Shown here piece after piece: positions 4,097 through 59,826 of a DNA stretch of 64,000 nt (position 1 is the stretch's first letter; every line of letters begins with the position of its first letter). Below the pieces are notes generated by a model. That model saw only the letters and a program-made list of their open reading frames with translations, made no database searches and was not told the origin of the DNA. The stretch comes from Dyella telluris. Lineage in GTDB: Bacteria; Pseudomonadota; Gammaproteobacteria; Xanthomonadales; Rhodanobacteraceae. The position numbers and the translations under genes are program-made. The DNA lies in contig NZ_CP060412.1 in the NCBI RefSeq assembly GCF_014297575.1, positions 62,001-126,000 of the forward strand, given 5' to 3'.

Positions 4097-4099
4097 GCA

Positions 4100-4134
4100 A
4101 AAGGGGCACCCTCATCAGGTGCCCCTCTTTCTTT
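4100..4134. terminator. Bidirectional terminator between integrase and ligase
   Basis: GGGGCACC (4103-4110), seven-base loop, GGTGCCCC (4118-4125), flanked by A-run on the left and T-rich run on the right. It serves both the rightward integrase and the end of the long leftward ligase transcript. Confidence 0.85.
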
Positions 4135-23200: not shown

Positions 23201-25669
23201 GCCGTCAGCACTGCGGACGCGGAGGAACTGGGCCGTCAACGGGCTCACCAGGCCACCCTTGAGCGCCTTGAAGCCGGACACGCGGATCCAGCCACCTGCC
23301 GGCGAGTAGGAACCCACTGCGCACGCGGAGCTGAACTGGTTCACTTCCCAGCTGGCTGCGAACAGCAGCACGGTCTGCTTGAGGCCCGCCTGGACAGTCA
23401 CGTCCTGGTCGAGCAGCAGGTGGTTTGCCGTCGCATCAGCGATCAGGCGACCCGAGGCGACCGTCTTCTGGGCCAGGTGCTTGACCACGATGACGCTTCC
23501 CAGAGCACAGCCCAGAGAGTCGTATGCCGCACTGAACTCCACGGTGCGGGTGATCAGGCGGTTCATGTTGAGCTGGAGGTTCAGATCCTCCATCGCACGC
23601 TGACGGCTGGTGACGCCGATCATGTCGATGGACGCAACCACCTCACGGAACGGGACGCCGGCGATGTCGTCGGAGATCTTGATCGTGGACTTCTTGAAGT
23701 CGTCGTCGCGATCCCAGAAGGTGCCCTCGACTGCGTTCGCGCGGTCGGCAGTGCTGAGCCAGCTGACCTTGAGGCTGTCCTTCACGATGTTCGCTTCGGA
23801 GAACATCATCACGGGCTCATCAGCGCGCTCGATGACGACCGTGTAGCGCGTGCCCGTGCGGATAACCTGCGCATGACCGCAGCGGGAGACCAGCTTGAGC
23901 GCTTCCCAGATGTTGCTGGCACTGTCGATGACGCCGTTGAACTCCAGGGGAGCCGGTGCCAGCGTGTCGCAGTAGTGCGCCCAATCCTTGAACGACTCCA
24001 GGTCGAGATCGTCAGCGGACACATCTGCGCCCAGGCGGTCGTCCAGGAGCATGTCCAAGCAGACCCACGCCGGGTTGCTGCTCGCACCGATCATCCACTG
24101 CTTCGTCGCACGATCCCAATAACGGATGCGGCGACCCTTGTTCAGGTAGGTGATGTTCGGGAGACCATTCAACTGGTCGGACAGCTGCACACGCACAGCC
24201 ACCAGGGCCGTGTTGTTGTAGGCGACCGATGCCGAGGTGATCTCACCGATGGCCTCGAAGTTCACTGCGTCGATGCCCTTGTCATCGGCCAGCTTCGGGT
24301 TGGTGCGGCAGACAGCGACCTTGTAGTAGCCAGGCTTGAGCGGAGGCGTGTAGTAGCTGATGCGAGTCGGGTAGCGCGTGTTGGACGAGAACGTGACCTT
24401 GCCGTCCTGCGACTTCTGCGTGTAGACCGGATCCTGGATCACCTGGCCAACGATGTTGCCCTGGCTGTCCAGAATGTCATCGCCGTCGATGGTCGAGTTT
24501 GCACGGAGCTTCTCGGCAATCTCGGCCTTCAGGGCATTGGAGATCTTCAGCCCAGTGTCGGGGGCAAAGGTCAGCTTGTCCCAGTAGTAGAACTTGTTCG
24601 TGTAGCCGGCGATCTCGTAGGTGCCGATGGTGTATTCCCACGCAGCGCCTGGTGCCGGGCTTCCGTCCGCATTGACGCGCATGTAGGCGATACGCAGGTC
24701 CACATTGGCCCACTGCGTCTTGCCCTTCTTGTCCACCGTCATCAGGCCCGTGGGTGCGGACATGTCGATGCGCAGACGGTCCACCGTGCCGCTCGTGAAG
24801 CGGACAAGGGGGCTCGTGCTCGGGTCGGCGTTGTAGACCGGAACTTCCGGGTTGCCGGTGTCGGTCGCCAGCTCGTTCGTCGAGAACCAGGGGATTACAG
24901 CCTGGTCTTCGTCGCCAAGGCGGATCTCCGTCTGGACGTTCTTGAAGGAATCGAGCGGCTGATCGTTGATGCGGATGTCTTCGATGCCCGCGACCGGGCC
25001 TTCACCCGCGTTCACGAGCATGTAGACGATCTGGGTCTTCTGCTGGTTTTCGGTGTGCAGGCCGATGATGTTGCCAGCCATGCGGAACTGGCCGTAACAA
25101 ACGGGGATCGGCATGTCCTCGTTGGACGTGTTCACCGGACCCGACAGGCCATACGTGCTGCTCTCATCCGAGCCACCACCCAGCTTTGCCGTGGGCAGCG
25201 GGATCAGGGCGTTCACGAGCATCGAGCCTGCAATCACGATACCCGCTGCGAACGCGCCTGCGTAAGCACTGGAGCCCATGATCGTGGTGGACAGGGACGC
25301 ACCCCAGCCAGCCGAGAAATACGTGATGACAGCCAGCGCAATGATGCGCAGGGCCATCTTGCCACCGTTGCCACCGTGCATGACCGGGACGATCACCACG
25401 CTGTCGCCAGGGTTCAGCGAATAGCTGTCCCACAGCTCATCAGGCACAGCAGAACCGTTGACGCCCGCAACGAAGCGGCCATCAGGAATGAAGTCAGCGA
25501 TTACCGCGCCTTCGCGGAACTCTTCCCAGCGCGCCTCTTTGATCTCAGGGGCGAGAGGGTTCCGAATTTCGATGACGCGAATGTGGGTGTCGAACTTGTC
25601 AACCGACGAAATCGACGAACCCAGCGATACGGTGTTCCCAATCCCGGAACTTTTCCGAAGCAACTCCAA
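20297..25669 (-). CDS. J: Tail tip host-specificity protein, gpI-gpJ fusion
   Basis: About 1790 residues. The N-terminal 160 residues look like lambda gpI (IRVIEIRNPLAPE ubiquitin-like part, then hydrophobic RIIALAVITYFSAGWG and AGIVIAGSMLVNALIP segments). The gpJ core follows (PIPVCYGQFRMAGNIIGLHT), a fibronectin-III-like domain (about 975-1060), an alanine-rich coiled coil (about 1260-1400) and a DUF1983-like C-terminus. It forms the central tip and contacts the receptor. The start is uncertain: TTG 25669 has GGAG upstream and limits overlap with the NlpC gene; ATG 25723 is the alternative. Confidence 0.9.
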   Translation of the reverse strand: MELLRKSSGIGNTVSLGSSISSVDKFDTHIRVIEIRNPLAPEIKEARWEEFREGAVIADFIPDGRFVAGVNGSAVPDELWDSYSLNPGDSVVIVPVMHGGNGGKMALRIIALAVITYFSAGWGASLSTTIMGSSAYAGAFAAGIVIAGSMLVNALIPLPTAKLGGGSDESSTYGLSGPVNTSNEDMPIPVCYGQFRMAGNIIGLHTENQQKTQIVYMLVNAGEGPVAGIEDIRINDQPLDSFKNVQTEIRLGDEDQAVIPWFSTNELATDTGNPEVPVYNADPSTSPLVRFTSGTVDRLRIDMSAPTGLMTVDKKGKTQWANVDLRIAYMRVNADGSPAPGAAWEYTIGTYEIAGYTNKFYYWDKLTFAPDTGLKISNALKAEIAEKLRANSTIDGDDILDSQGNIVGQVIQDPVYTQKSQDGKVTFSSNTRYPTRISYYTPPLKPGYYKVAVCRTNPKLADDKGIDAVNFEAIGEITSASVAYNNTALVAVRVQLSDQLNGLPNITYLNKGRRIRYWDRATKQWMIGASSNPAWVCLDMLLDDRLGADVSADDLDLESFKDWAHYCDTLAPAPLEFNGVIDSASNIWEALKLVSRCGHAQVIRTGTRYTVVIERADEPVMMFSEANIVKDSLKVSWLSTADRANAVEGTFWDRDDDFKKSTIKISDDIAGVPFREVVASIDMIGVTSRQRAMEDLNLQLNMNRLITRTVEFSAAYDSLGCALGSVIVVKHLAQKTVASGRLIADATANHLLLDQDVTVQAGLKQTVLLFAASWEVNQFSSACAVGSYSPAGGWIRVSGFKALKGGLVSPLTAQFLRVRSADGKSYKEMRVNQWEEQDDGTALAWVDPWSTSDVNTSAFVQLVAGDVVVELPVKAPAKTGVQDYVDLDGNFSQLLQSAPIRTHFLFGTLEAVKRLYRVTGINGGPTAETASITALEYNAEVYSTSGLIAPKPPGDGVPLYIGQVENLVASPNVSYDDIKARFYVDVHWERPKTGDYDGAELFRLDPNADEWKSVGKVTAGYTIYSFEAEKDDVFSLRVVAIDRVGNRAPFSKAPTVTVEVKAAITAAVTPLDLNVTTLPFACRLSWAVSDATRVAQTEIYYTLGIDQEPSKSFADATLADTVSAFSFTHTNRGEGQFRYWIRLKDTAGNKGDPFPKDGVIGTAQTSIQQIMEENGEKVSAGMLDKELRTNIDQIPQLFDLLAGSDLNGKVDMTTFVDTIAETWRLLTLADNHQTRISVEENVRQSEDEALAQRITTFYAELNENIAAGIVEERTARAAADEAFAKSMDAMAVRMGQAEAGIASESKARADADSAEATARTTLAAKMADDLAAGISSEKQARVDADGAISSDVGKLATRMGAAETAITNEQKARSDGDSAEATSRNNIIAKIVGKADGSAVTDDSTIGQKVSSSVAAYDKTIQALVKDNYATITSQEQLSLKVTGTKDGATITNSSYLGSLQTSVSDLQNGKFVTEWARQMFADSTSEAGKAQAKITNLESIVFTGSGNLVSQVNQLSYDTYNAGGTVRQAIEQRLSISDFQSQYSLRIDVNGYVAGFGLGVTSKPGAGPTSQFIVRADQFLVGAPGIANVFPFQVITSGDYRGVWMDAAYIRDGTITNAKIGDTIQSWNYDGNNGWQIRKDGTAIFNNAIIRGDLTAGSITGKFQASNIISWSGDITASGGATDAFWLDNPVRSGEWHRPVVMMEVNSYNSGSDPCNGTVTIEKLVGSSWVPMRQVNIYLGSRNSAVNTFLIPDDMINGSRAYRVHTTSGGNRDGNFHVNLVQGYIFGLR

Positions 25670-47998: not shown

Positions 47999-48021
47999 GC
48001 GTCAACCAAGACGCTCTATAG

Positions 48022-48050
48022 AAAAGGCCGGGAAATTCCCCGGCCTTTTT
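48022..48050. terminator. Bidirectional terminator
   Basis: AAGGCCGGG/CCCGGCCTT stem, five-base loop, T6 run to the right and A4 to the left, between the converging 127-aa and lipoprotein genes. Confidence 0.85.
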
Positions 48051-48056
48051 TGTGGC

Positions 48057-48494: not shown

Positions 48495-48517
48495 GTATGT
48501 ACGCGCATACGTATAAT
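48495..48517 (+). promoter_or_regulatory. Rightward promoter with phage operator site 16 (XRE regulator)
   Basis: GTATGTACGCGCATAC (48495-48510) next to -10 TATAAT (48512-48517), with an extra half-site TACATAC (48521-48527) after it. Confidence 0.75.
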
Positions 48518-48545: not shown

Positions 48546-48917
48546 ATGACGGAAGAAGCCCCTACCCCGCGAAACAGCAAAGCCGATCAGGAGGCAGTAG
48601 CTGACGCCCTGGTCGATCAGCTGCACAACACGATTCGCACCCAGATCGCTCGACGCAAGATCCGAGTAGCCGACATCGCAAGAAATTATGGCTGCTCACA
48701 GGTCTATATCTTCAACCTGTTGAAGAACAAGGAAAACGTATCCCTGCGCGTCTTGGGCAAGCTCGCCCTGGCGATGGGACTGCAGGTGACGCTCGCCTTT
48801 GCACCCATCGAAGGCTGGGAAGACCGCGACAACGACATCCCCGGCACGTCGGGCCGAGACCTCGACTCCATCGACCTGGACAACGAGATCCAGGAACTGC
48901 TCAGGAACTTCGCATGA
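48546..48917 (+). CDS. XRE-type helix-turn-helix regulator, candidate phage repressor
   Basis: 123 residues. RKIRVADIARNYGCSQVYIF then LLKNKENVSLRVLGKLALAMG is a standard XRE HTH (about 37-77). The remainder is short and acidic, so it lacks a cleavable (S24) domain of lambda-type repressors. It sits on its own operator with an extra half-site, as an autoregulated repressor would. Stop overlaps DHFR start (ATGA). Whether it binds the GTATG-N6-CATAC family is inference. Confidence 0.8.
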   Translation: MTEEAPTPRNSKADQEAVADALVDQLHNTIRTQIARRKIRVADIARNYGCSQVYIFNLLKNKENVSLRVLGKLALAMGLQVTLAFAPIEGWEDRDNDIPGTSGRDLDSIDLDNEIQELLRNFA

Positions 48918-49882: not shown

Positions 49883-50006
49883 GCCTGTATAAGGACAGCC
49901 TGGTCGGTGGTCGCCAGCGGTAGGTCAGCCGGTCAATGGGTCGGTTGGTCTCCGGTCGCCTGTATAAGGACTGCCGGGAACCTGGTGCCGGGGTGCCTGT
50001 ATAAGG
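49883..50006. repeat. Three copies of GCCTGTATAAGG
   Basis: Direct repeats at 49883, 49958 and 49995 (spacings 75 and 37 bp; the first two extend to GGTCGCCTGTATAAGGAC). They fill the 298-bp gap between the zinc-protein gene and the next terminator. Each contains a TATAAG that could be a -10, or they are protein-binding iterons. No gene here. Confidence 0.6.
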
Positions 50007-50083
50007 TTACGTGGAAATCGTCGCACTTCGGAGGCATCCGGCTGGCGATGTTGCGCGATTTCTAGGACTTCGAAAACGAAAAA

Positions 50084-50107
50084 GTGAGCTAGATTTCTCT
50101 AGCTCAC
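50084..50107 (-). terminator. Terminator of the 196-aa protein gene
   Basis: Perfect GTGAGCTAGA/TCTAGCTCAC stem with TTTC loop, directly downstream of the leftward gene. Confidence 0.8.
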
Positions 50108-50131
50108 TCTCTCATTGTTTGCTTTGTTCGC

Positions 50132-50722
50132 TTACGCTTCCAGTGCGAAGCGCTCCCATTCTGCGCGCTTGCTGTCAAGCAAAGCGAAAGACTTGTCAGA
50201 CACGTCAGAGCTGATCCAGTTGAGCGCACGCAGCGCCTTGAGACTGCTAGAGGCTTGCGTGGGAGCGGTCGAGCTGCCAATGGGGAGTTTCTTCAAAAGC
50301 GCATTGGTCACGCCTTTGGTCTGCAATTCGCCAGCATCACGCAGAATGCTGATCGAAGCGTAAAGCGTCACATTGGGCTTCTCACGCTGCAACACTTCGC
50401 GCCAATGGCAACCCTTGCCGAGTGCAGTCACGACAGCTTGCAGCTTGTCCTGCGCGTAGATAGCGGCGCGCATGGCGTAGGAGTGGTCAACGTGCGCAGT
50501 GTAGGCGGCGAGAATCTTCTCATCCTTCAGCATGCCGACCCACTTATCAGCGCGACGCTTTGCGTTCTTTGCGCTTGTCACTTCGTCGCTGCTCTTATTC
50601 TTGTCTGCAATGATCGCAGCAAGCTTGTCAGACTGCGCAGCGTAGTCTGCGCGGAAGTCGATAGCGTCAGCGACAGTAGCAGCGGCGACGGTCTTAGCAG
50701 CGGTCTTAGCGGTCTTAGCCAT
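50132..50722 (-). CDS. Hypothetical early protein with Ala/Lys-rich start
   Basis: 196 residues from ATG 50722 (AAAGGGA 9 bp upstream). Starts MAKTAKTAAKTVAAATVA, then a helix-rich body (KLAAIIADKNKSSDEVTSAK, WVGMLKDEKILAAYTAHVDH) and LLKKLPIGSSTAPTQASSSL. Lower GC codon use than the virion genes. Family unknown. Expressed from a good promoter under operator site 17; a terminator follows, so it is monocistronic. Confidence 0.75.
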   Translation of the reverse strand: MAKTAKTAAKTVAAATVADAIDFRADYAAQSDKLAAIIADKNKSSDEVTSAKNAKRRADKWVGMLKDEKILAAYTAHVDHSYAMRAAIYAQDKLQAVVTALGKGCHWREVLQREKPNVTLYASISILRDAGELQTKGVTNALLKKLPIGSSTAPTQASSSLKALRALNWISSDVSDKSFALLDSKRAEWERFALEA

Positions 50723-50779
50723 TTTAGTATTCCCTTTGGTTTGGTTTGGGTTAGTGCGGTCTTGCCCGACCGCACAAAC

Positions 50780-50808
50780 ATAGTATGCGCATACATACTT
50801 CCCGTCAA
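50780..50808 (-). promoter_or_regulatory. Leftward promoter with phage operator site 17
   Basis: -35 TTGACG (50803-50808), 17-bp spacer, -10 TACTAT (50780-50785), with a perfect palindrome GTATGCGCATACATAC (50783-50798) in the spacer. Confidence 0.82.
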
Positions 50809-50846
50809 CAGATTTATTCAACTTTTTTTGATGGAAAAAACATGGT

Positions 50847-50862
50847 GTATGTATTGACATAC
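50847..50862. promoter_or_regulatory. Phage operator site 18
   Basis: GTATGTATTGACATAC, full match, 50 bp upstream of the leftward promoter of the 196-aa gene. It contains TTGACA reading rightward. Confidence 0.65.
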
Positions 50863-51235
50863 TATGCAAGTGCATGTTAGTCGCGTGCGCGCTTTCATTC
50901 TCTCTCAGTGCATGCTTTTTGCTGCGCTGCATATAGACGTCTATACGTCTGTGTGATAGTCGCGCACTCCTACGTGCGATGCTCCTATGCGACGCGCACG
51001 AGCAATCCATGGTTTTCCCACCGAGCACCGGTTTAACCAACGTCTTTCCACCGGGAGCAGGAAAGCCCTGGTGGCCGCCAAACCTAGAGGGAAACCTATG
51101 GGACGCCAACTTACCTATAGGGGCACCCATAGCCGGGTAATCCATGGGTCAACCTGCCCTATGCCCAAAAGAAAGCCCAGAGGTGATCTGGGCTTGCTGA
51201 CTACGGTGGACAGGGCAACTGCAGGAGATTGAGAT
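50863..51235. other. Gene-free regulatory region
   Basis: No gene supported. It holds the perfect palindrome TATAGACGTCTATA (50932-50945), CCATGG at 51007 and 51142, related CCTAGAGG/CCTATGGG/CCTATAGG strings (51083-51121), and the terminator hairpin of the next leftward gene (51173-51195). Confidence 0.6.
51173..51195 (-). terminator. Terminator of the 53-aa gene
   Basis: AAGCCCAGA/TCTGGGCTT perfect 9-bp stem, five-base loop, preceded by an A-run (T-run leftward). Confidence 0.72.
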
Positions 51236-51397
51236 TTAGCATGGGCTAAGGACGCTCTTTCGCTTCATGGTGCGTTGGGCGCGACGATCCAGGTTTCGGG
51301 CTTTCTCACGCTGTCGATGGCGGTGATGCGCTTCGACAAGTTCCAACGCAGAGTAGTTGGTCGTGTAACCACCATTGAATCGTTTGCTAGCTTTCAT
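51236..51397 (-). CDS. Small basic early protein
   Basis: 53 residues from ATG 51397, with GGAGATGGAG just upstream. Very basic, His/Arg-rich (ELVEAHHRHRQREKARNLDR). Unknown. A longer frame upstream runs into the promoter box and is rejected. Promoter: TTCTCG at -35 (51503-51508), 17 bp, CAAAAT at -10. Confidence 0.6.
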   Translation of the reverse strand: MKASKRFNGGYTTNYSALELVEAHHRHRQREKARNLDRRAQRTMKRKSVLSPC

Positions 51398-51768
51398 GCT
51401 ATCTCTCCATCTCCATGTGTCTCTTATGTCGGGTGTCATCGCAGCTGTGAACTCGTTCAAAGTTCTTTGCGATGTGTGAATTTTGCGCTTATGCGCTATT
51501 TCCGAGAACAAATGGAACTAGGTAGAAGTCGATTTCCAGGAGAGACCCTATCAACGTAACTCTAGGGCGAATGCCTGTCTGAAACGCCCTGTATCGAGCC
51601 CTAAGCGCCTCCTAGGGTTTCTCTATATCTGCGTCGCTCTGTAGGGCTGCGTGCGCTGTGTGACGCTGTAGGCCGCGTTTAGGAAGACCGTCCTAGGCCA
51701 GGTGTAGGAGAACCCATGGGTTAGCCGGCGACACAGTAGAAGAGCGCCCATAGGACGCTCTGTATCGC
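51398..51768. other. Leader, promoter and phased hexamer array
   Basis: Long leader of the 53-aa gene, its -35 box at 51502-51509 (CCGAGAAC), several CTAGGG strings, and CCTAGG 51692, TGTAGG 51703, CCATGG 51714, CCGGCG 51725, all at 11-bp steps. The terminator of the next gene is at 51741-51761. No gene. Confidence 0.6.
51741..51761 (-). terminator. Terminator of the 114-aa gene
   Basis: AGAGCG/CGCTCT stem with GC-rich loop immediately after the stop at 51769. Confidence 0.6.
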
Positions 51769-52113
51769 TCAGTATTGAACGCGCTGCAATGACAGCATCA
51801 GTTCACTGATTCGCTGCGCGAGCGCGTCGCGTGACTCGTACATCTCGCATGCAACGCGCTCTTTTTCGATGTCGTCGCTATTGCAGTAAGCGTGCAGATC
51901 ACGAGTGTCGAGAAGTCCATCGGGTGATTTCTCACTCATCGAGTCGTAGACGTTCAGCGTATACATCGTTTCGTCGCTGTCGATCCACTGGTCATCAATC
52001 ATCGTGTGCTGTGCTGCGATCACATGCACGACATAGCGTTCTTGAATCAGCATGAACGCGAAATTGTAAAAATCATCATGGTCTTGCACGTTTGCGACAG
52101 TGAAAGCTTTCAT
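51769..52113 (-). CDS. Hypothetical early protein
   Basis: 114 residues from ATG 52113. VANVQDHDDFYNFAFMLIQERYVVHVIAAQHT then a DxxxxTLNVYDSMSEKSPDG strand region and a C-terminal helix; unknown small alpha/beta protein, acidic. A frame starting earlier (52197) covers the promoter box and is rejected. The leader has CTCACTCACA about 19 bp before ATG instead of a purine-rich ribosome site. Confidence 0.68.
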   Translation of the reverse strand: MKAFTVANVQDHDDFYNFAFMLIQERYVVHVIAAQHTMIDDQWIDSDETMYTLNVYDSMSEKSPDGLLDTRDLHAYCNSDDIEKERVACEMYESRDALAQRISELMLSLQRVQY

Positions 52114-52168
52114 AGTTGCATGCTCTTGCGTTGTGAGTGAGCAAGCAGTGTCGCGTTGGATGCGAAAC

Positions 52169-52182
52169 CCGACTATCGGCAC
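52169..52182 (-). promoter_or_regulatory. Early-promoter box (GTGCCGATAGTCGG)
   Basis: Leftward -35 TAGTCG inside the box, 17-bp spacer, -10 GACACT. CCATGG (52208) lies about 26 bp upstream. Confidence 0.65.
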
Positions 52183-52233
52183 GTTGAAGGTTGTCATGCC
52201 GGAGTAACCATGGGTGATCTGCAGACAAGAGAA

Positions 52234-52252
52234 AGCGCCTACAAGAGGCGCT
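52234..52252 (-). terminator. Terminator of the 91-aa gene
   Basis: AGCGCCT/AGGCGCT stem with ACAAG loop after the stop at 52260; flanked by GAGA/TCTC. Confidence 0.62.
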
Positions 52253-52259
52253 CTCGCTA

Positions 52260-52535
52260 TCAGACGTCGAGGTCGATCTCAAAGTCAGACCATGAATCGC
52301 GCTTGTCGAACTCAGCGTAAGCCTGCATGAGGGCGCTCGATGCTTGCACGACATTCAGACCCAGCTGTAGGCATGCGTTGCGACTGATCTGCACGTCGTA
52401 GAACAGGTCATTGAGGTCGTCATCTTCACGAACGAGGTCAAGCGTCGCGAAGCGAACACCATCGCTCGTGACTTGAAAGGTCGTCGTATCGTTCGCTTCG
52501 TCGATGATGATTTCGAAAAGAACCTTGATCTGCAT
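52260..52535 (-). CDS. Hypothetical acidic early protein
   Basis: 91 residues from ATG 52535. KVLFEIIIDEANDTTTFQV then FATLDLVREDDDLNDLFYDV and ACLQLGLNVVQASSALMQAY; acidic, alpha/beta, unknown. Leader has CTCACTCACA 13 bp before ATG. Neighbours are organised the same way, with private promoter and terminator. Confidence 0.68.
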   Translation of the reverse strand: MQIKVLFEIIIDEANDTTTFQVTSDGVRFATLDLVREDDDLNDLFYDVQISRNACLQLGLNVVQASSALMQAYAEFDKRDSWSDFEIDLDV

Positions 52536-52588
52536 AGCGTTTTGCTCTGTGAGTGAGTGTGTAAGCATCATCTGTGAGGTCGCAACGC

Positions 52589-52602
52589 CCGAGAATCGGC
52601 AC
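52589..52602 (-). promoter_or_regulatory. Early-promoter box (GTGCCGATTCTCGG)
   Basis: -35 TTCTCG, 17-bp spacer, -10 GATGAT. CCATGG at 52616 and CCATGC at 52627 lie upstream, 11 bp apart. Confidence 0.65.
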
Positions 52603-52645
52603 GATGCCGGTGATTCCATGGGTTATCCATGCGCTCGATGCGAGA

Positions 52646-52666
52646 AGAGCGACGCTAGGTCGCTCT
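52646..52666 (-). terminator. Terminator of the 108-aa gene (52673)
   Basis: AGAGCGAC/GTCGCTCT perfect 8-bp stem, loop GCTAG. Same stem as at 53136-53156. Confidence 0.7.
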
Positions 52667-52672
52667 GTAGGT

Positions 52673-52999
52673 TCAGTCGTTCTCGCGATCAATAACCATG
52701 CGTTCGACGACGTGTTCCATCGCTGCTGCGATGCTGTCGTGCGTCTCATCGAGGAGCACGCAGTTGACTTGAGAGAACACGTCAACACCTTGGTCGAACG
52801 AGAGCACGCGATACTGTCGCGTTTCGAGGTTCTGAAGGAGGAAATAGTGATTTCCTTCATAGATCTTCGCTTGCACGCTGTAGGTTGTGTCAGCGTCATC
52901 GACGACCTCAGCGTTGAAATCTTGCGCGAGCAAGTAGCGAACCAGCGCGATGTGATTCGTGTCGATGTCGTTCGTGTCAATCTTCGCTGCAATCTTCAT
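52673..52999 (-). CDS. Hypothetical early protein
   Basis: 108 residues from ATG 52999. AAKIDTNDIDTNHIALVRYLLAQ, AEVVDDADTTYSVQAKIYEG, FLLQNLETRQYRVLSFDQ; alpha/beta, acidic, ends with EHVVERMVIDREND. Unknown family. CACTCACATG-containing leader. Possibly related in fold to the other small early proteins here, which are similar in size and acidity. Confidence 0.68.
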   Translation of the reverse strand: MKIAAKIDTNDIDTNHIALVRYLLAQDFNAEVVDDADTTYSVQAKIYEGNHYFLLQNLETRQYRVLSFDQGVDVFSQVNCVLLDETHDSIAAAMEHVVERMVIDREND

Positions 53000-53067
53000 A
53001 CGTAGGTCTCATGTGAGTGTGCGTCGCTGCATTGCGACGAGACACATGATCGAGTTGGACGCGAGTT

Positions 53068-53081
53068 CCGAGAATCGGTGT
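53068..53081 (-). promoter_or_regulatory. Early-promoter box (ACACCGATTCTCGG)
   Basis: -35 TTCTCG, 17-bp spacer (ending CGTCCAACTC), -10 GATCAT. CCATGG at 53106 and CCAGGA at 53117 upstream. Confidence 0.65.
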
Positions 53082-53135
53082 GTTTGAGGACTCATGCCGG
53101 CGAATCCATGGGTTGCCCAGGAGGTGCGCATGAGA

Positions 53136-53156
53136 AGAGCGACACGAGGTCGCTCT
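53136..53156 (-). terminator. Terminator of the 93-aa gene (53164)
   Basis: AGAGCGAC/GTCGCTCT stem with ACGAG loop, almost identical to the one at 52646-52666. Confidence 0.7.
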
Positions 53157-53163
53157 ATAGGAC

Positions 53164-53445
53164 TCAGAGGGCTTCGAGCACGTCTTCGTCAACACCAGCT
53201 TCGCAACAGTTGAACTCGAAAACACCAGCTGCGAGAGACTTCATGTGCTCACGAGCGCGCTGTGCAAGTTCCAGCTGCTGCTCTTTAGGACGTTCTGCGA
53301 TTGCTTCGCTGAGGTGATAGCTCAAGCGCACGAAGAGGTCATACTGCTCGCCCTCACTCTCTTGAAACGCGAAGAGCGCGAGGTCGTAATCGACGTAGAC
53401 GAGAGTGTTGTTGAGGAACTTTTCGACGTACTGCTGAGCGTTCAT
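53164..53445 (-). CDS. Hypothetical early protein
   Basis: 93 residues from ATG 53445. NAQQYVEKFLNNTLVYVDYD, QYDLFVRLSYHLSEAIAERP, LELAQRAREHMKSLAAGVFEF; helical, ends CCEAGVDEDVLEAL. Unknown. The earlier in-frame start at 53490 would include the leader. CTCACTCACAGAG lies about 14 bp upstream. Confidence 0.68.
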   Translation of the reverse strand: MNAQQYVEKFLNNTLVYVDYDLALFAFQESEGEQYDLFVRLSYHLSEAIAERPKEQQLELAQRAREHMKSLAAGVFEFNCCEAGVDEDVLEAL

Positions 53446-53510
53446 AGGTCTATTTCTCTGTGAGTGAGTCGCTATCTGCGACACACGCATGATCGTGTTG
53501 GATCTGATTT

Positions 53511-53524
53511 CCGACTATCGGCAC
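53511..53524 (-). promoter_or_regulatory. Early-promoter box (GTGCCGATAGTCGG)
   Basis: -35 TAGTCG, 17-bp spacer with ATCCAACAC, -10 GATCAT. CCATGG at 53543 and 53554 upstream, exactly 11 bp apart. Confidence 0.68.
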
Positions 53525-53585
53525 TCTTGAGGCCAGGATCACCCATGGTCTATCCATGGCTTGCCCTGACTCTCACCCAAAACAA

Positions 53586-53665
53586 AGGCCCGATGGCACT
53601 CACTCCATCGAGCCTCTGTCCCAGCTGACTTGTCTCCCCTACTGAGTCCTGGTCATTCTCAGTAG
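53586..53665 (-). terminator. Double terminator after the 151-aa gene
   Basis: Two hairpins: 53586-53614 (AGGCCCGATGG/CCATCGAGCCT) and 53639-53665 (CTACTGAG/CTCAGTAG), both downstream of the leftward gene ending at 53711. Confidence 0.65.
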
Positions 53666-53710
53666 GGCACAACTAATAAGGTGGTCATGTCCTTGTGGTC
53701 CCTTGGCCGC

Positions 53711-54166
53711 TTACAGGGCGACTGCGTGGATGCCGGCTTCACCGTTCATGGCGCGCTTCATCAGCTCAGCCACGAGTTCTTCGGTCGTCAGGGCGCTGAC
53801 ACTGGTGGTCGCTTCCACTGCCGGACCCTGGTTCGCATGGTCGTCGAAGGTCTCCAGGACATCGAGGATCTCCTCCGCGATACCGTCGATGCGGGGCGTC
53901 ACCAGGTCGTTCGGACGCTTGCTGGGCTGACCCATCACGATGGGACGCAGCAGATCCTGCAGCAGTGCCAGCTGGACGTTGCCTTCCTCGTCACCCTTGG
54001 CCTTGCGGAACTTGGCGAGCATCCCGGCGACCTGGTGGAGATACGCACCGTGCATCAGCACTTCCTCGGCGTGATGAGCCAGCTCCTGACGCAGCTCGTT
54101 CTCGGTCATGTTGCGGACCATCTCACCGTGCATCAACAACTGGTCTTTCTTCTGCTGCTCGTTCAT
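53711..54166 (-). CDS. Hypothetical early protein, helical
   Basis: 151 residues from ATG 54166 (CAGAG upstream). Helical, Glu/Gln-rich: QQKKDQLLMHGEMVRNMTEN, HHAEEVLMHGAYLHQVAGML, EEGNVQLALLQDLLRP. Unknown. Its promoter is a strong sigma-70 type under operator 19, unlike the box promoters of its neighbours. The earlier in-frame start (54457) is rejected since it spans promoter and leader. Confidence 0.72.
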   Translation of the reverse strand: MNEQQKKDQLLMHGEMVRNMTENELRQELAHHAEEVLMHGAYLHQVAGMLAKFRKAKGDEEGNVQLALLQDLLRPIVMGQPSKRPNDLVTPRIDGIAEEILDVLETFDDHANQGPAVEATTSVSALTTEELVAELMKRAMNGEAGIHAVAL

Positions 54167-54212
54167 GGCTCTGTTTCTCTCTGTGCGCTGCGCGCTTTGT
54201 GTTTGTGTGCTT

Positions 54213-54241
54213 AGTGTATGTATGCGCTCACATATCGTCAA
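54213..54241 (-). promoter_or_regulatory. Leftward promoter with phage operator site 19
   Basis: -35 TTGACG (54236-54241), 17-bp spacer, -10 TACACT (54213-54218); operator GTATGCGCTCACATAT (54220-54235) fills the spacer. Confidence 0.82.
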
Positions 54242-54258
54242 GCGCATACGTATGGGAT

Positions 54259-54552
54259 CTACTTGGCAGTGCGTGACTCGTGGCGGTGCATGAAGACGAT
54301 CAGGCCGATCCACATGACCAGGCCAATCACCCCACCCACGGCCATCATTGCATCGACCTCGCTGGTGTTCATCAGGACACAGAGGGCCAAGATGAGATAG
54401 AGGCTCAGCAGCACCACGTCCAACAGGTTGGCACCTCCCTTCTTGGCCGGCTTCCAACCCTGTGCCATGCGGTAGACATCACCTGTGGCCTGAAAACGGG
54501 TCATGCCTGCCTCGATAGGAATGCCGGCGTACTGGTGTGCAATCACGTTCAT
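54259..54552 (-). CDS. Small two-pass membrane protein
   Basis: 97 residues from ATG 54552. Two transmembrane segments (LLDVVLLSLYLILALCVLM and MMAVGGVIGLVMWIGLIVFM) follow a cytoplasmic or periplasmic 50-residue start (GMTRFQATGDVYRMAQGWKP). Unknown; inner-membrane early phage proteins of this kind often interfere with host functions or superinfection. Confidence 0.7.
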   Translation of the reverse strand: MNVIAHQYAGIPIEAGMTRFQATGDVYRMAQGWKPAKKGGANLLDVVLLSLYLILALCVLMNTSEVDAMMAVGGVIGLVMWIGLIVFMHRHESRTAK

Positions 54553-54575
54553 AGCGTTTGCTCGCTGCGTTGTGT

Positions 54576-54622
54576 GTATGTGCATACATAGTAGCGCATC
54601 AGCAACAACCGACAATCGGCAC
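54576..54622 (-). promoter_or_regulatory. Early promoter carrying both the box and phage operator site 20
   Basis: Box GTGCCGATTGTCGG (54609-54622) with -35 TTGTCG (54610-54615), 16-bp spacer, -10 TACTAT (54588-54593); operator GTATGTGCATACATAG (54576-54591) directly after. Upstream CCATGG 54647, CCATGG 54658, CCTAGG 54669 at 11-bp steps. Confidence 0.75.
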
Positions 54623-54693
54623 GTCATAGGACTATTGGCGGCCCCTCCATGGGTTATCCATGGCTCACCCTAGGGCGGCTCCACCCAAAAAAG

Positions 54694-54723
54694 TGCCCCT
54701 GCGAGCGGGCAAGCTCCAGGGGC
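54694..54723 (-). terminator. Terminator of the 153-aa gene
   Basis: GCCCCTG/CAGGGGC stem with a 16-base loop, followed (leftward) by a T6 run. Confidence 0.62.
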
Positions 54724-54809
54724 GTGGTCGAACAATAATCAGAGCCCAAAGGGAGGCCGAGGACGGGAGTCTTTGGCCCACCTACCCTGTTACTGCAGAC
54801 AGGGTGATT

Positions 54810-55271
54810 TTAGTCGGTTTCGCGGAAGGGGGCCACCTTGTACTGGTCGTGGATCTGGACGAACCAGGTCTCGGTGATGAAATCGAGGATGCTATGCACC
54901 AGGCGCAGGTCAAGCGTCCCCTGGTCCTCGTCCGTGGTCTCCTGGTGAATGCCCATCCAGTCGTTCCGGAAGGACAGAGGAAACAGGACTTTGGTGCCAT
55001 TGATGGTCAGCTCCATCAGGACAATATCCGGGTCACGCATCAGATCACCATTGGACTCGCCGTAGCTGGCAATGGAGTACGTGGGCTGGCCATAGTGGTT
55101 GCTGATGACCTCGACCAACACATCCATCATGCCCTGGGACTTGAACCGCGTATTCCGGCGATGACCTTCCATCAGCAGATCGAACTGCTCATAGGCCCAG
55201 GTCATACGGCCAAAGGTTCTGTCTTGTGTGGCCAGCTGCTCGATGGCAGTGATCACTTTATGGTCCGTCAT
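54810..55271 (-). CDS. Hypothetical early protein
   Basis: 153 residues from ATG 55271 (ACGGAG 8 bp upstream). KVITAIEQLATQDRTFGRMTW, YEQFDLLMEGHRR, MDVLVEVISNHYGQP, then a beta region VLMELTINGTKVLFPLSF and a final helix. Unknown. Promoter: degenerate box at 55328-55339, 17-bp spacer, -10 CATCAT, with a CCTAGG/CCATGG/CCATGG triplet upstream. Confidence 0.7.
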   Translation of the reverse strand: MTDHKVITAIEQLATQDRTFGRMTWAYEQFDLLMEGHRRNTRFKSQGMMDVLVEVISNHYGQPTYSIASYGESNGDLMRDPDIVLMELTINGTKVLFPLSFRNDWMGIHQETTDEDQGTLDLRLVHSILDFITETWFVQIHDQYKVAPFRETD

Positions 55272-57269
55272 GCTGTGCTCCGTTGTCAGTTGCTGCGATG
55301 AGCAAATGATGATTGTGGCGCATGACCCCGACTATCTGGGAGAGATCAGATACCTGCCCTAGGCTGGGCCATGGTTGTGCCATGGGCTCACCTGCGGTCT
55401 ATCCATGGTCTGCTGATGGTTGGCCCACCGGCCCTATGGTTTGTGGCTGCTCTACGTGTATAGAGAGATAGAGATATGCACGCTTGTCCCTAGAGCCTAT
55501 GGGAAAACCTATGGTCGGCCATCCATCAACCTATGGCACCTTGGCTGCTGGTCCACCCTAGTCCCAGTGATCATGTCCCTAGTTTTGATTAGTTATAGGG
55601 AAATATAGAACCCGTAGGCCGCCTATTTCCCAAGAATCACTGCTCAATAAACCTATTTGTTATGGCCGTCTAAATAGATACGTTTACTTTTGGCCATCCA
55701 GAACATGCTCAAAACAGCCAAAAACCATGTTGACGTACTGTTTGAGGGGTTAATGACTAATTTCCCTATGCTAATAAACATGAGGGAATGGCCAACCAGT
55801 GTGCCTAGTGCCAAGGCCAACCGCTCCCATGGTTCAACCATGGATAGACCTAGGGGAGAGTGACGGTTGGCTCATGGGATGGCCGGCTATGGGAGAGCCA
55901 TGGTTGAGCAGAGGAGGTGCCAATACAGGGGAAACCATGGATAGACCATGGGCAAGCCTAGGGCCGGGTTGGCACCACTATCCCTATAGGGAACCAGGTC
56001 ATCTGGAGCCGGGAGTATCTCTTTCTCTATGGAAGTGCCTATCTGATGCCGGAGCTATCTGACTGACCTAGTACATGTGCTACGTAGGCCAGGATTAGGA
56101 AGACCGTGTTTGCTCCGGATGAGCGACAGCTCGGAAACTAGGCAATCTGAGAACTCAGGATATGACGCCCCCTACCCCGTGACGATGCACTGAGTAGGGA
56201 CACATCCCGGCCTTCAGACTGCCTTGGGGAGTTTGACTCCCTCCCGGTGGTGATCCACAGGGGCAACCTTCAACCTCATGCCATTGCGACAGTCACTGTT
56301 GTTCCTCGGTGCGCATGAGCCTGGGCAAGCCAGAACAGGTAACACCGTGTCACTCACCCGCCTCGCTGTCGCACCTATCGGTGACGCCCGAGTCCTGTCT
56401 GCGGGAAATCCTTCATCAGGGTCATTGCTACAAGAGCTGCCAGTGGCCGAACGTATGGGTGCCGATAAACCGCTAGCTGACCTGAGTATGTTAGCGCGTA
56501 CATACCGTGGCGGGCAATGCTGGATAGAGCATGGGTCGGCCGGACTTGGGAGCGCCTGGACATGGAGGGGCCATGGGAAACCCTTGCAATATATGTGGCG
56601 CGGGCCGGCACCGTCATTTGCCCTTCCCTTCCACAGGCACCTCGGCTCTCCCATCCCTCTATACCCCGGCCTGTCTCTTCCCATACCCCTATGCGTAGGC
56701 CATCCCTACTGCTACTCCCCATAGCTCTCTCCCCTAGGGTGTGTGTGCTCCTCTATCCCTTCTTCCCTATACCCACAAGTCTTCTCCTGCATCCCTATAG
56801 CCGGACACAATACCGACCTCGACCTGGTGCGATTCGTGTGTGTCTGTGTCGTTCTCTATGCGTGGGATGAGCGCTCGTTCTTTGTATCGTTCGTGCTGCT
56901 TATCTCTATGCGAGAAACGCGCTAGATCGACGCGAGAGACATTTCCCTTATGCGAGCGCTGTGCTGCTACTCGTTCTATGCGGGGAACGTCACAGTGATC
57001 GTTTTAGCGTTCGACGATGTTGACGATATGGGTGTGTTTCTCATGCGGGAGTGTTGATTTCGCGGAAAGCGTGTCAAGTTCCCTTTACATGTGTTGGCGA
57101 TCGAGGCGTTTGCGAATTTAAGTTATTGATCCGGCAGGTTTATTTGGAATTTTGGTGGGTTCGATACAAATAATTTCTGTAACGGAGGGACTTAACAGAT
57201 TCGTTGAGTGACCGCTTTGCAGGAATTGACCAACTTGCGCCCTTACATCAACACCTATAAGGCTTAAAC
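55272..57269. other. 2-kb gene-poor control region with phased CCWWGG arrays
   Basis: No convincing gene. It contains hexamer triplets at 11-bp steps (55358/55369/55380; 55827/55838/55849; 55935/55946/55957), a related series CCTATGG/CCATCC/CCTATGG at 55508/55519/55530, an AT-rich stretch (55570-55780), a hairpin GGGAGTTTGACTCCC near 56226-56240, a degenerate phage operator (56488-56503) and a T-rich half (56700-57260). A replication origin or a master early control region would fit. Confidence 0.6.
56488..56503. promoter_or_regulatory. Degenerate phage operator site 21
   Basis: GTTAGCGCGTACATAC: one perfect and one 3/5 half-site. Confidence 0.45.
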
Positions 57270-57644
57270 ATGAATCAACATTTCAGTAGTAACGACCCGA
57301 ACCACCGCATCCAGATGGCACACGTCAAGGAGCTGTCCACCGACAAGCTCAGTGGCGAGTCCTTCAAGTACACCTTCCATGACGTGAAGAAGCTCTGGGA
57401 GGGACACTATGGCGGTCCATCGGGCTGGGCACAGAAGACCGCCAAGGAGCGCGACGATTACCTTCAGGGATTGAAGGACTGTGCCAACGCAGTGAAGAAG
57501 ATCGCGGAGATGGAGCCGGACATGGGACACAAGCGCAGCATGCTTGCTTGTTACCACGGGACCATCTGGATCTATGCCTGGATCAGCCACCTGACCGTCG
57601 ACGGTCAGTTCTGCGATGACCTCTTGGACGCAGTTGGCTCCTAA
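57270..57644 (+). CDS. Hypothetical protein, only rightward gene of the early region
   Basis: 124 residues from ATG 57270 (AAGG about 10 bp upstream). HFSSNDPNHRIQMAHVKELS, HDVKKLWEGHYGGPSGWAQK, DYLQGLKDCANAVKKIAEME; helical, unknown. It converges on the leftward operon and is separated by a bidirectional terminator. TATAAG at 57256-57261 could be part of its promoter. Confidence 0.72.
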   Translation: MNQHFSSNDPNHRIQMAHVKELSTDKLSGESFKYTFHDVKKLWEGHYGGPSGWAQKTAKERDDYLQGLKDCANAVKKIAEMEPDMGHKRSMLACYHGTIWIYAWISHLTVDGQFCDDLLDAVGS

Positions 57645-57650
57645 CCAAAA

Positions 57651-57674
57651 GAAAGCCCGGTCATGTGCCGGGCT
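57651..57674. terminator. Bidirectional terminator
   Basis: AAGCCCGG/CCGGGCTT stem with seven-base loop between converging genes. Confidence 0.78.
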
Positions 57675-57695
57675 TCTCTGTGTAAGGGTGGATGG

Positions 57696-58019
57696 TCAGT
57701 CGTAGTCTTGAACCTCGCACTGGATCGCCCTGTCGAGGATCAGTCGCATCTTGTCGCCTTCATCCCGCTCGCGGTCAGTGCCACCCTGTAGACGCTGGGA
57801 GATCAGCTTGAGCTTGTCGAAGTCCTCAGCCTCGATGCAGTAGTCGATGTAGATCCTGGTGGGTTCCCCGATTGTTGGCTCGGGTGCATCGAGTATCCGG
57901 CGAATGTCCTCGTTCGGGTCTGTCGAAAGCTCGCCCACCTTCAATAGTGCTGGGTCATCCCAAACGCCTTGAATCCTCGCCCTGATGGCTTGAAGCTTCT
58001 CGTCCTGGCTCAGCGTCAC
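57696..58019 (-). CDS. Hypothetical helical early protein
   Basis: 107 residues from GTG 58019, overlapping the upstream stop (GTGA), GGAG upstream. KLQAIRARIQGVWDDPALLK, DPNEDIRRILDAPEP, DYCIEAEDFDKLKLISQRLQ; acidic, helical. Unknown. Last gene of a five-gene overlapping chain. Confidence 0.7.
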   Translation of the reverse strand: MTLSQDEKLQAIRARIQGVWDDPALLKVGELSTDPNEDIRRILDAPEPTIGEPTRIYIDYCIEAEDFDKLKLISQRLQGGTDRERDEGDKMRLILDRAIQCEVQDYD

Positions 58020-58255
58020 TTGATGCTCCTTAGCTGCCCCTGTGTAAGGCATTCCATGTGCCCGCTCTTCCAGCCAGGCACTCCCTCTTTGTCTGCGTAG
58101 ACCCGTTCGGTCCCCAGGTAGCCGTCGAACCGGACCCAGGGTGCTTCAGAGGTGCTCTGCACGACGGTTCCACACATGCCAGGTTCGATCCACTTGGGAT
58201 CGTCCCGGTCGATGGACGCTACACAGACGCGATCACCTGCTTTGAACTTTACCAT
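58016..58255 (-). CDS. Small SH3-like protein
   Basis: 79 residues from ATG 58255. FKAGDRVCVASIDRDDPKWI and MCGTVVQSTSEAPWVRFDGY read as an SH3-like barrel (as in KOW-type folds), then SGHMECLTQGQLRSIK. Its ribosome site lies within the end of the upstream gene (…GEGRW). Confidence 0.65.
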   Translation of the reverse strand: MVKFKAGDRVCVASIDRDDPKWIEPGMCGTVVQSTSEAPWVRFDGYLGTERVYADKEGVPGWKSGHMECLTQGQLRSIK

Positions 58256-58560
58256 CGCCCCTCCCCTGCCGCTGGCTTGAGCTTGGGAACACTGTCAGCG
58301 TCGCCATAGCTGACGTTGAGGTTCCTGACGATCTGCTCCACCACGCTGCGCTTGACCTCATGGCCGTTGGTTTTGTTGAACTCGCTGATGACCCGCTGGA
58401 CGATCCAGTCGAGGTTCAACTCATGGGTCGTCTGACGAGCACGCTCCTGCACCGCCTCCTTGATCCACTCCTTCACCTCGGCCTTCGTGATGCCCAGGTC
58501 AGCAATGTGTTGGCGCAGGGCGAGCGTGATCTCCCGGCGTCCTACCTCGTCAGCCTTCAT
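58249..58560 (-). CDS. Hypothetical helical protein ending GEGRW
   Basis: 103 residues from ATG 58560 (ATGA overlap). REITLALRQHIADLGITKAE, VKEWIKEAVQERARQ, LDWIVQRVISEFNKTNGHEV; helical. The C-terminal GEGRW codons double as the next gene's ribosome site. Confidence 0.68.
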   Translation of the reverse strand: MKADEVGRREITLALRQHIADLGITKAEVKEWIKEAVQERARQTTHELNLDWIVQRVISEFNKTNGHEVKRSVVEQIVRNLNVSYGDADSVPKLKPAAGEGRW

Positions 58561-58793
58561 GCGTTCAGCGCCTTCTTGATTGCTGTCTGCACCTCACGAC
58601 GGCCACGGTAGCTCGCCTCCCTGGCGATCTCCTTGAACAGTTCGGAGGCAGTGGGTGCCTTGAAGAACGTGTGGAACAGATCGTTCTCGTGCTTCCACCA
58701 CGGTTCGGTGGGATTACCAGCTGGCCAGGTCTCCTTGAAACCGAGAGCCTTCATCACTTCCGGGCTGAGCTTGGGTTCGTTGGACTCACTCAT
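58557..58793 (-). CDS. Hypothetical small protein
   Basis: 78 residues from ATG 58793, overlapping the upstream gene by 8 bp. PEVMKALGFKETWPAGNPTE, ENDLFHTFFKAPTASELFKE, YRGRREVQTAIKKALNA. No family known. Confidence 0.68.
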   Translation of the reverse strand: MSESNEPKLSPEVMKALGFKETWPAGNPTEPWWKHENDLFHTFFKAPTASELFKEIAREASYRGRREVQTAIKKALNA

Positions 58794-59526
58794 GCTCGAT
58801 CACCTGGTCATCATCGACGCGCTTGAGGATCTCGATCTTGGGCATCTCGACGGGATCGTAGGTCAGCGCGGTGTTCTTCAGCGCTTCCATGCCGGCACGT
58901 TGGATCGTCTGCACAACGTAGGCATCGACTTCCGATTTTGCGCTTTCGACCGTTTTCTCCATGTGTTCGTCGAACATGTCCGCGACGAACTTCATGTTGC
59001 CCGTCATCTGGGCGCGTGCAGTGGACGCCTTCAGCTGTAGGGCTGCCTTCTGTTTGATGGGCAGCTTCAGCTCACCCAGCATCTTGTGCAGCTCATCCAC
59101 CTCGCTGAGTGCGGTCTCCAGGCGCTTTCTGACCTCGCCCGCGAACTGCTTGGTTCGGGACTGTGGCGGTGCCAGCTCCGGGACATAGCCATTACCACCA
59201 GGCTCGCGATAGCGGAGCGTGCATTGGCTACCCATGCCTACGTTGGGGCTGGACACGAAATGCGCCCACTGGGCTTCGCTCAGATCCACCTCGATGTAGG
59301 GCTTGGTCGCTGCATGCACCCAATCGGTAGACAGGTCACGACGAATGGAGCTGCTCGCGATCCGAATACGGATGAAGTGCTGATGGTTGAAGTCCGACCC
59401 GTACAGATTGGTCATCCCACTGATGCGAGACGCTCCGATCTGCGCGTAGGCCGGGTGTTCGTAGATCAGCCCACCCATCGGGCCAGCCTCTTCACGAACG
59501 GTCGGTTCCAGGAAAATGCGCTTCAT
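58786..59526 (-). CDS. Conserved hypothetical phage protein
   Basis: 246 residues from ATG 59526. N-terminal 120 residues beta-rich with conserved-looking GSDFNHQHFIRIRIASSSIR and WAHFVSSPNVGMGSQCTLRY; C-terminal half a long helix (FAGEVRKRLETALSEVDELH ...). I cannot name the family. First gene of the chain running down to 57.7 kb. Confidence 0.72.
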   Translation of the reverse strand: MKRIFLEPTVREEAGPMGGLIYEHPAYAQIGASRISGMTNLYGSDFNHQHFIRIRIASSSIRRDLSTDWVHAATKPYIEVDLSEAQWAHFVSSPNVGMGSQCTLRYREPGGNGYVPELAPPQSRTKQFAGEVRKRLETALSEVDELHKMLGELKLPIKQKAALQLKASTARAQMTGNMKFVADMFDEHMEKTVESAKSEVDAYVVQTIQRAGMEALKNTALTYDPVEMPKIEILKRVDDDQVIEHE

Positions 59527-59529
59527 GGC

Positions 59530-59826
59530 TTATGCCTCTTTGCCATTGGTTTCGTTGTACTTCGCGACACGCCAATTGACGTGCTCGGGCTGGATTTCGT
59601 CGGGGTTGGATCCGCACAGGTAGACCTGGGCCGGCTCAACCTCATTCAGGGCTTTGCCACGCTGATGAACCAGGGTGATTTCGCTGGGCGGGAGATCCTC
59701 CACCACGTCGTCGTCGTAGTTGACGACCAGGACATCCATTGCTTCAGAGGTGGCGACAAACTGGACGACTCCAGCTTGGATCGTGACCACCACGGCGGGC
59801 AGCTTCTTCTCAGTGTCGGCGGGCAT
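59530..59826 (-). CDS. Hypothetical small beta-rich protein
   Basis: 98 residues from ATG 59826 (GAAGGA 7 bp upstream). VVVTIQAGVVQFVATSEAMD, VLVVNYDDDVVEDLPPSEIT; acidic. Three bp separate its stop from the next start region. Confidence 0.68.
   Translation of the reverse strand: MPADTEKKLPAVVVTIQAGVVQFVATSEAMDVLVVNYDDDVVEDLPPSEITLVHQRGKALNEVEPAQVYLCGSNPDEIQPEHVNWRVAKYNETNGKEA

Follow-up and report, generated by a model that had tools for sequence, protein, structure and literature searches.

Helix-phased CCATGG and CCTAGG palindromes upstream of small genes in a Dyella telluris prophage and its relatives: possible sites of a phage regulator

Arrays of two short palindromes, CCATGG and CCTAGG, stand upstream of a row of small genes in a prophage of Dyella telluris. 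The stretch analysed, referred to as the window, comprises 64,000 nucleotides (bases 62001-126000 of the 4,991,029-base single-contig chromosome), and all prophage positions given here are counted from its first base. The prophage that takes in the window is integrated and 103 kb long, with a 22-base repeat at 2522-2543 and 105656-105677, the right copy of which lies inside tRNA-Lys(CTT). The recognised genes include those for terminase, portal, tape measure, DnaB and a ParB-like protein, and the gene at 2774-4096 is read as the integrase from the single Phage_integrase match in a scan of 102 proteins. The named phages with the most similar terminase are the Stenotrophomonas phages BUCTxx99 and ANB28 (69.5%), followed by Rhizobium, P. 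syringae and SSU5-type phages. BUCTxx99 matches 58 called proteins of the prophage, none of them from 50132 to 59826. Within this interval (Table 1), each of six small genes, called like all window genes by our own codon-usage script, has one to four sites close upstream, the nearest at 81-107 bp from the start codon. One of these genes, 54810-55271, matches Pfam DUF6908. All 26 sites of the form CC(AT/TA)GG found in 50723-57269 lie outside called genes, in a stretch that is 63% gene-free (5e-6 if the sites are independent).

Table 1. Features of the array stretch and its surroundings (window positions)
Feature	Position	Strand	Remarks
Triplet CCATGG-N5-CCATGG-N5-CCTAGG	54647..54674	+	Upstream of gene 54259-54552, nearest site 95 bp from start codon
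Triplet with a further CCATGG at 55403	55358..55408	-	Upstream of gene 54810-55271
Triplet	55827..55854	+	Within long non-coding stretch 55272-57269
Triplet	55935..55962	+	Within long non-coding stretch 55272-57269
Pair CCATGG-N5-CCATGG	53543..53559		Upstream of gene 53164-53445
Single CCATGG	52208..52213		Upstream of gene 51769-52113
CCATGG with degenerate neighbour at 11 bp	52616..52621		Upstream of gene 52260-52535
CCATGG	53106..53111		Upstream of gene 52673-52999
CCTAGG and CCATGG, 22 bp apart	51692..51719		
CCATGG at 51007 and 51142	51007..51147		Upstream of candidate gene 50132-50722
Five CCGANNNTCGG elements (52169, 52589, 53068, 53511, 54609)	52169..54619	-	Between arrays and genes
Six small genes with arrays upstream	51769..55271	-	Own gene calls: 51769-52113, 52260-52535, 52673-52999, 53164-53445, 54259-54552, 54810-55271 (starts 52113, 52535, 52999, 53445, 54552, 55271)
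Candidate array-binding protein, 196 aa, TA-x-TQ family	50132..50722	-	
Sigma-70-like promoter of candidate, TTGACG-17-TACTAT	50780..50808	-	GTATGTATGCGCATAC at 50783-50798; promoter matches overall at chance level
Cro/C1-type HTH gene	48546..48917	+	Same palindrome GTATGTATGCGCATAC upstream at 48495-48510

An earlier note on this DNA had described four triplets and one pair of CCWWGG hexamers at exactly 11-bp spacing, and their positions proved exact. The window holds 88 CCWWGG against 58 expected, and CCWWGG-N5-CCWWGG forms nine pairs in it, all within 53543-55962 (100 shuffles: mean 0.06, largest 1); the rest of the 4.99-Mb chromosome has seven further pairs, scattered. When the 26 sites of 50723-57269 are placed at random in its non-coding DNA (20,000 placements), a mean of 0.15 and a maximum of 3 pairs at 11 bp are obtained against the nine found. 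The phased hexamer observation is confirmed as real, but the freedom of the two central positions is not: all nine pairs are built from CCATGG or CCTAGG alone, with CCTTGG and CCAAGG in none, and the true word is CC(AT/TA)GG. The prophage contains 32 such sites versus 65 expected from base composition, and 27 of the 32 fall at 49.6-56.8 kb. The four triplets represent one ordered set, CCATGG-CCATGG-CCTAGG, read on the + strand in three cases and on the - strand at 55358. Their spacers were said to vary, and they do differ in all triplets, but an ATARM spacer (ATAGA or ATAAC, or the complement) recurs at 53543, 54647, 55838 and 55935, as well as between 52616 and its degenerate neighbour and next to 55403, so that the spacers are not wholly free. 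Tandem duplication as the origin of the spacing was considered and rejected, since the spacers differ in all triplets and the geometry is also seen with non-ATARM spacers; the recurring spacer apart, a duplicated repeat unit explains little. The degenerate phased runs of the earlier note exist, in that degenerate CC..GG matches around the exact sites peak at +11 and -11 (10 and 12 being nearly as high), but 55508 and 55530 are 7-mers, CCTATGG.

The arrays have a recurrent place relative to the genes. In five of the six small genes a CCGANNNTCGG element lies between site and gene, which accounts for five of the nine CCGANNNTCGG copies of the prophage. The right half of CCGANNNTCGG could be a -35 element, with a GATCAT-like -10 element 17 bp further. 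Terminator-like hairpins end some of the upstream genes, ahead of the sites. A seventh gene (53711-54166) has no sites, and its sigma-70-like promoter carries another palindrome. In general scans, sigma-70 promoters gave 4 matches versus 4.3 by chance and terminators 12 versus 6.3. The triplets at 55827 and 55935 adjoin an AT-richer, non-coding part (55601-55800), which, together with the conserved gene at the array, would suit a replication origin in which the hexamers are iterons and the neighbouring gene encodes the initiator. However, GC skew has no turn at the array, DnaA-box matches are at chance level in the window with one near the array (56251), both being weak tests, and the sites stand upstream of six separate genes; an origin is accordingly judged improbable. 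As for RNA elements, a comparison with Rfam returned matches at 48000-48051 and 49964-50124, both of them under the gathering score. Elsewhere in the prophage, the tail region contains two adjacent 1790-aa genes (14873-20245 and 20297-25669).

Relatives were drawn by a helicase alignment that did not use the motif, from which the best 80 of 308 IMG/VR loci were taken (loci bear L numbers, L160 being the prophage under study). Terminase and helicase searches of the genomes of the host family and order yielded no close relatives of the prophage: one distant terminase (39%) was found in 233 genomes, and 398 genomes gave no match beyond the own genome. A cluster was defined as at least five CC(AT/TA)GG sites within 3 kb, in loci of at least 10 kb, and related phages were counted separately once near-duplicates had been removed. 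Clusters are present in 26 of 54 other loci, mostly beyond the helicase, where the array of the window stands, with few sites elsewhere; the remaining 28 lack one, some because the locus stops short of the array place. When the 64 palindromic hexamers were ranked by their enrichment at 13.4-19.5 kb relative to the initial 13.4 kb (34 loci of 17 kb or more, among them array-poor ones, with a boundary chosen after the cluster survey), CCTAGG came first (144 versus 10, density ratio 31), followed by CTATAG (25 versus 11, ratio 5.1) and CCATGG (120 versus 56, ratio 5.0). The ten CCTAGG copies in the initial 13.4 kb bear out, for CCTAGG, the statement of the earlier note that such palindromes are normally rare in these genomes. 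A brief look at array-poor loci suggested possible other words, such as CCAAGG in L227 and TCCACAG at 11 bp in L202.

The location of the sites is conserved as well. In 25 loci (26 with at least seven sites in 4 kb, minus L176, a duplicate of L174), 342 of 347 sites lie outside called genes, the non-coding share being 37-87%. The zone up to 60 bp upstream of start codons contains zero sites in 4,531 gap positions, and site density peaks 40-80 bp past the 3' ends of genes (40 sites in one 20-bp bin and 23 in another). By public annotation, all 31 sites in the examined stretches of the Rhizobium phages X66, B1VFA and V1VFA-S are intergenic, and 15 of the 37 in RHEph10, N1_15 and Y2_11 lie inside annotated genes. 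Hits of the spacing pattern in public collections are not used as evidence by themselves, because among the matches listed most are unrelated 11-bp tandem or inverted repeats; one such scan returned 21 viral stretches, of which L124 is the prophage under study and L137 part of its relative L238. A separate observation from these hits concerns Prolixibacteraceae McBI.27 loci (L021, L051, L068 and others), in which inverted repeats of 11-bp units, e.g., TCCATGGTTTG, are interspersed around a central stem. No description of these CCATGG/CCTAGG arrays appeared in the titles and abstract openings of the literature, which is no proof of absence.

Spacing in the relatives was measured in 28 loci (25 from IMG/VR and three Rhizobium phages) against random placement (2000 draws) and against a jitter null, in which each site is shifted by up to 30 bp and spacings below 10 bp are mostly forbidden. 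Spacings of 6-9 bp are absent, about 13 being expected by random placement. Those of 10-11 bp number 38, versus 6.7 by random placement (maximum 18 in the 2000 draws) and 12.8 by jitter; those of 15-19 bp, 13 versus 16.5 and 27.5; those of 20-25 bp, 47 versus 19.4 and 31.9; and those of 26-29 bp, 12 versus 21.2 by jitter. A second set of 19 loci was drawn later by the TA-x-TQ protein described below (the non-duplicates among 39 that had enough sites; L279, L283 and L287, with 5-6 sites, were excluded). In this set 6-9 bp spacings are likewise zero, and the counts against jitter are 19 (5.9), 6 (13.1), 23 (15.2) and 3 (10.1) for the same four classes. For the first set the best-fitting period is 11.25-11.5 bp, for the second 10-10.5 bp. 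The one-face binding geometry proposed in the earlier note is therefore borne out in relatives drawn without the motif, and the loss of phasing that it had named as refuting was not seen. Spacing by about one turn recurs among the relatives, but exactly 11 bp is not general: many relatives space their sites at 10 bp and some at 12-13 bp, so that the 11-bp spacing is the prophage-specific case of a one-turn rule. The same data bear on the idea that the hexamers form hairpins in RNA or single-stranded DNA, with a 6-bp stem and a loop of 4-5 bases. The 10-11 bp spacings would leave loops of a suitable size, and in a one-hexamer phage any two sites could pair; however, the excess extends to 20-25 bp, the deficits between turns point to one DNA face, and four of the nine pairs of the window join CCATGG with CCTAGG, for which full pairing is impossible. 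Hairpins thus have next to no probability.

Most phages use one of the two hexamers almost exclusively. Among the 34 loci with four or more sites, 31 have a single hexamer at 80% or more of them (16 CCTAGG and 15 CCATGG), with X66, B1VFA and V1VFA-S among the CCTAGG users and RHEph10, N1_15 and Y2_11 among the CCATGG users; the mixed loci are the prophage under study, L228 and L237. A near-exclusive hexamer per phage is what would be left by a sequence-specific protein that differs between phages. The 196-aa product of gene 50132-50722 is the candidate for this protein. It has no Pfam match at E 1 and one close homologue (93%) besides itself in the protein collection; a profile of 40 relatives found one chance-level PDB match (E 0.071), and Pfam matches of single members are weak. 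PHROGs 9272 and 4202, both function-less entries, match 23 and 22 of these 40 members, one of which (L152) belongs to a related, more widespread family. The family is recognised by the hallmark STA-x-TQASSTR, and its iterated profile took in 57 frames over the loci. In RHEph10, the annotated frame of gp142 (L241 6790-7680) differs from the overlapping frame of the TA-x-TQ match.

The TA-x-TQ family accompanies the arrays: every one of the 25 array-rich loci has it, with L174 and L176 taken as one phage, against 6 of 12 array-poor loci. When families were formed by plain clustering and required to be in 17 or more of the 25 array-rich loci and in no more than 5 of 17 array-poor loci, this family alone qualified (17 and 4); other families reached 14 and 5, or 11 and 2. 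The binder might instead be another phage protein, e.g., one of the ParB-like proteins or one encoded beyond the surveyed stretch, the TA-x-TQ gene being merely a member of the regulon. ParB-like genes are indeed present in all array-rich loci; however, ParB-like, helicase and other conserved families are found in array-rich and array-poor loci alike, and residue x of the TA-x-TQ protein goes with the hexamer, as detailed next. Another binder is consequently held to be unlikely, although it deserves to be kept in view. Among 29 small proteins of alignment A2, one has a Pfam Hfq match (E 2.2e-8).

Residue x (position 154) ranks second among the alignment columns scored against hexamer type. The test took one main copy per locus, with at least three sites and a clear majority hexamer. 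Excluded were L176 (duplicate), L241 (frame mismatch), the window and L228 (mixed), L194 (1:2) and, with fewer than three sites, L152, L172, L191, L215, L217, L227 and L233; L237 was scored as CCATGG (8:4 over the locus, 8:3 around the array). Ser or Thr is found at x in 19 of 19 CCTAGG users versus 2 of 18 CCATGG users, the remainder of which have Pro, Asp, Gly, Asn, Ala or Leu (p 1e-8 if independent, but relatives are not). The proteins of L195 (Ser, CCTAGG) and L229 (Asp, CCATGG), 51% identical, differ in both residue and hexamer, as does the related pair of X66-type (Ser) and L234-type (Pro). Over whole proteins, identity and hexamer use are weakly correlated (Mantel r -0.21, p 0.0004). 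An independent set was assembled from three scans, which gave 68 loci, 39 on new contigs; removing 7 whose protein shares 90% identity or more with the first set, 2 that were unreadable and 8 with fewer than five sites left 22. This sample is not neutral, because part of the hallmark segment was built into the patterns of two of the scans. In it, Pro or Gly goes with CCATGG in 14 of 14 loci, and the residue-hexamer test gives p = 70/7315 = 0.0096, calculated by hand. In L288, dropped for its few sites (3 CCATGG, 0 CCTAGG), the hallmark segment is identical to that of X66, a CCTAGG phage. Ser or Thr is thus present in all CCTAGG users seen, but Ser by itself does not fix the hexamer as CCTAGG.

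The position of the sites upstream of the putative promoters favours activation. The opposite role, in which the same sites and phage protein would silence the small genes, nucleating upstream and spreading to shut them in the lysogen, has some appeal, since cooperative repressors suit phased multi-site arrays and the prophage is a lysogen. Classical operators, however, overlap the promoter core, and the sites avoid the 60 bp before start codons; moreover, the C1-type gene and other promoters already carry a different palindrome. Repression by the array protein is for these reasons considered rather unlikely. The different palindrome, GTATGTATGCGCATAC, covers the spacer and first -10 bases of the candidate's sigma-70-like promoter. 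With up to three mismatches, the palindrome GTATGTAYGCGCATAC occurs at 20 window places (30 strand matches versus 0.39 expected): 48495, 50783, 54216, 54572, 46465, 13527, 6100 and 13 more. These copies look like dispersed operators of the C1-type protein 48546-48917. As the palindrome is common to the candidate promoter and the C1-type gene, the candidate may be off in the lysogen; induction may turn on the candidate and then the array genes.

Several known systems resemble these arrays in part. The P2 Ogr and P4 Delta proteins are zinc-binding and use upstream activator sites at late promoters. The likeness lies in sites with dyad symmetry that stand upstream of several promoters within a single phage and in a regulator that would be phage-encoded; site and spacing are different, and the candidate, lacking a Pfam match at E 1, does not show membership of the Ogr/Delta family. 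Mycobacteriophage stoperators, which are bound by a phage protein, are reported to be spread across the phage genome (PMC9283540). Many copies of a short site over the intergenic DNA of one phage are likewise seen here; however, the sites are palindromic, helix-phased and clustered in one stretch, unlike stoperators. The general kind that the arrays resemble is that of a cooperative, upstream-acting phage regulator, with sites repeated at about one turn, outside genes and upstream of putative promoters (intragenic exceptions occurring in RHEph10 and Y2_11).

ParR-type centromeres consist of 11-bp direct repeats bound by a multimer. The array shares their one-turn repeat spacing, and relatives of the prophage's group are phage-plasmids (SSU5-type), which would speak for a centromere (parS/parC type) inherited from a phage-plasmid ancestor. 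However, the prophage is integrated, the sites stand upstream of several genes, and the ParA-like gene of the Rhizobium relatives stands apart, beside another small gene. No partition gene pair adjoins the array: no ParA turned up by name, though no specific search was made, and 63 small proteins included no clear ribbon-helix-helix protein (one chance-level PF02697 match, E 0.019). A centromere is very improbable. Of the oligomerising proteins suggested in the earlier note (activator, silencer or partition-like), a regulator upstream of promoters fits best and the partition-like option is not supported. In BUCTxx99 (L147 24178-24400) and in L154, L157 and L161, all Stenotrophomonas phages, pairs of GTTCAGC/CTGAACC 11 bp apart occupy a comparable place, between DHFR and small genes and upstream of a 199-aa MAK... 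protein, the orientation switching mid-array. The word is non-palindromic, and the 199-aa neighbour is likened to the candidate by place only; this array of the BUCTxx99/ANB28 type may be an extension of the rule or an independent system.

Taken together, the hexamers are probably same-face sites of a phage regulator that reads the palindrome, the likeliest being the TA-x-TQ product, and that acts upstream of the promoters of small genes, most likely as an activator or anti-silencer. The 196-aa protein would bind each palindrome and neighbours would touch along one helix face, on sites spaced by roughly one turn, at 11 bp in the prophage and for the most part at 10-13 bp in its relatives, between the end of a small gene and the next promoter. 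In this way, the regulator would control monocistronic accessory genes together.

It is important to note that several observations weigh against this reading. The prophage under study itself mixes hexamers, with 19 CCATGG to 8 CCTAGG. The phase of site to promoter is not constant, because the distances from CCGANNNTCGG (or its 55328 counterpart) to the nearest CC(AT/TA)GG are 39, 27, 38, 32, 38 and 30 bp. Tightly spaced pairs are scarce in many clusters, and roughly half the relatives lack a cluster of this hexamer. Intragenic sites include trios in RHEph10 (6528-6581) and Y2_11 (4062-4115), at places comparable to four intergenic sites of N1_15, and some sites lie between convergent genes, for which a pure promoter model needs unannotated transcripts. 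Concerning the binder, the survey reached about 10 kb either side of the helicase. Ser accompanies CCATGG in L187 and L238, a second copy of the family carries Ser in each of four phages counted as CCATGG users (L212, L234, L235 and L237), and the Ser loci of the independent set split into four with CCTAGG and four with CCATGG (L283, L287, which has 4+1 sites, L293 and L299).

A broader proposal can be put forward tentatively, from sequence comparison. The TA-x-TQ proteins might be a class of DNA-binding phage regulators not described before, which would pack along helix-phased palindromes, with a private word for each lineage (CCATGG, CCTAGG, perhaps others). Residue x would help to set the two central base pairs, and word changes might record selection for regulatory isolation between phages meeting in one cell. 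If this is true, a large group of phages of about 100-120 kb shares a regulatory system missed by annotation, and a function-less protein family, its sites and the genes it controls would be readable together from sequence. The natural variants with one or the other hexamer would then be a ready set for learning how a protein family changes its DNA specificity.

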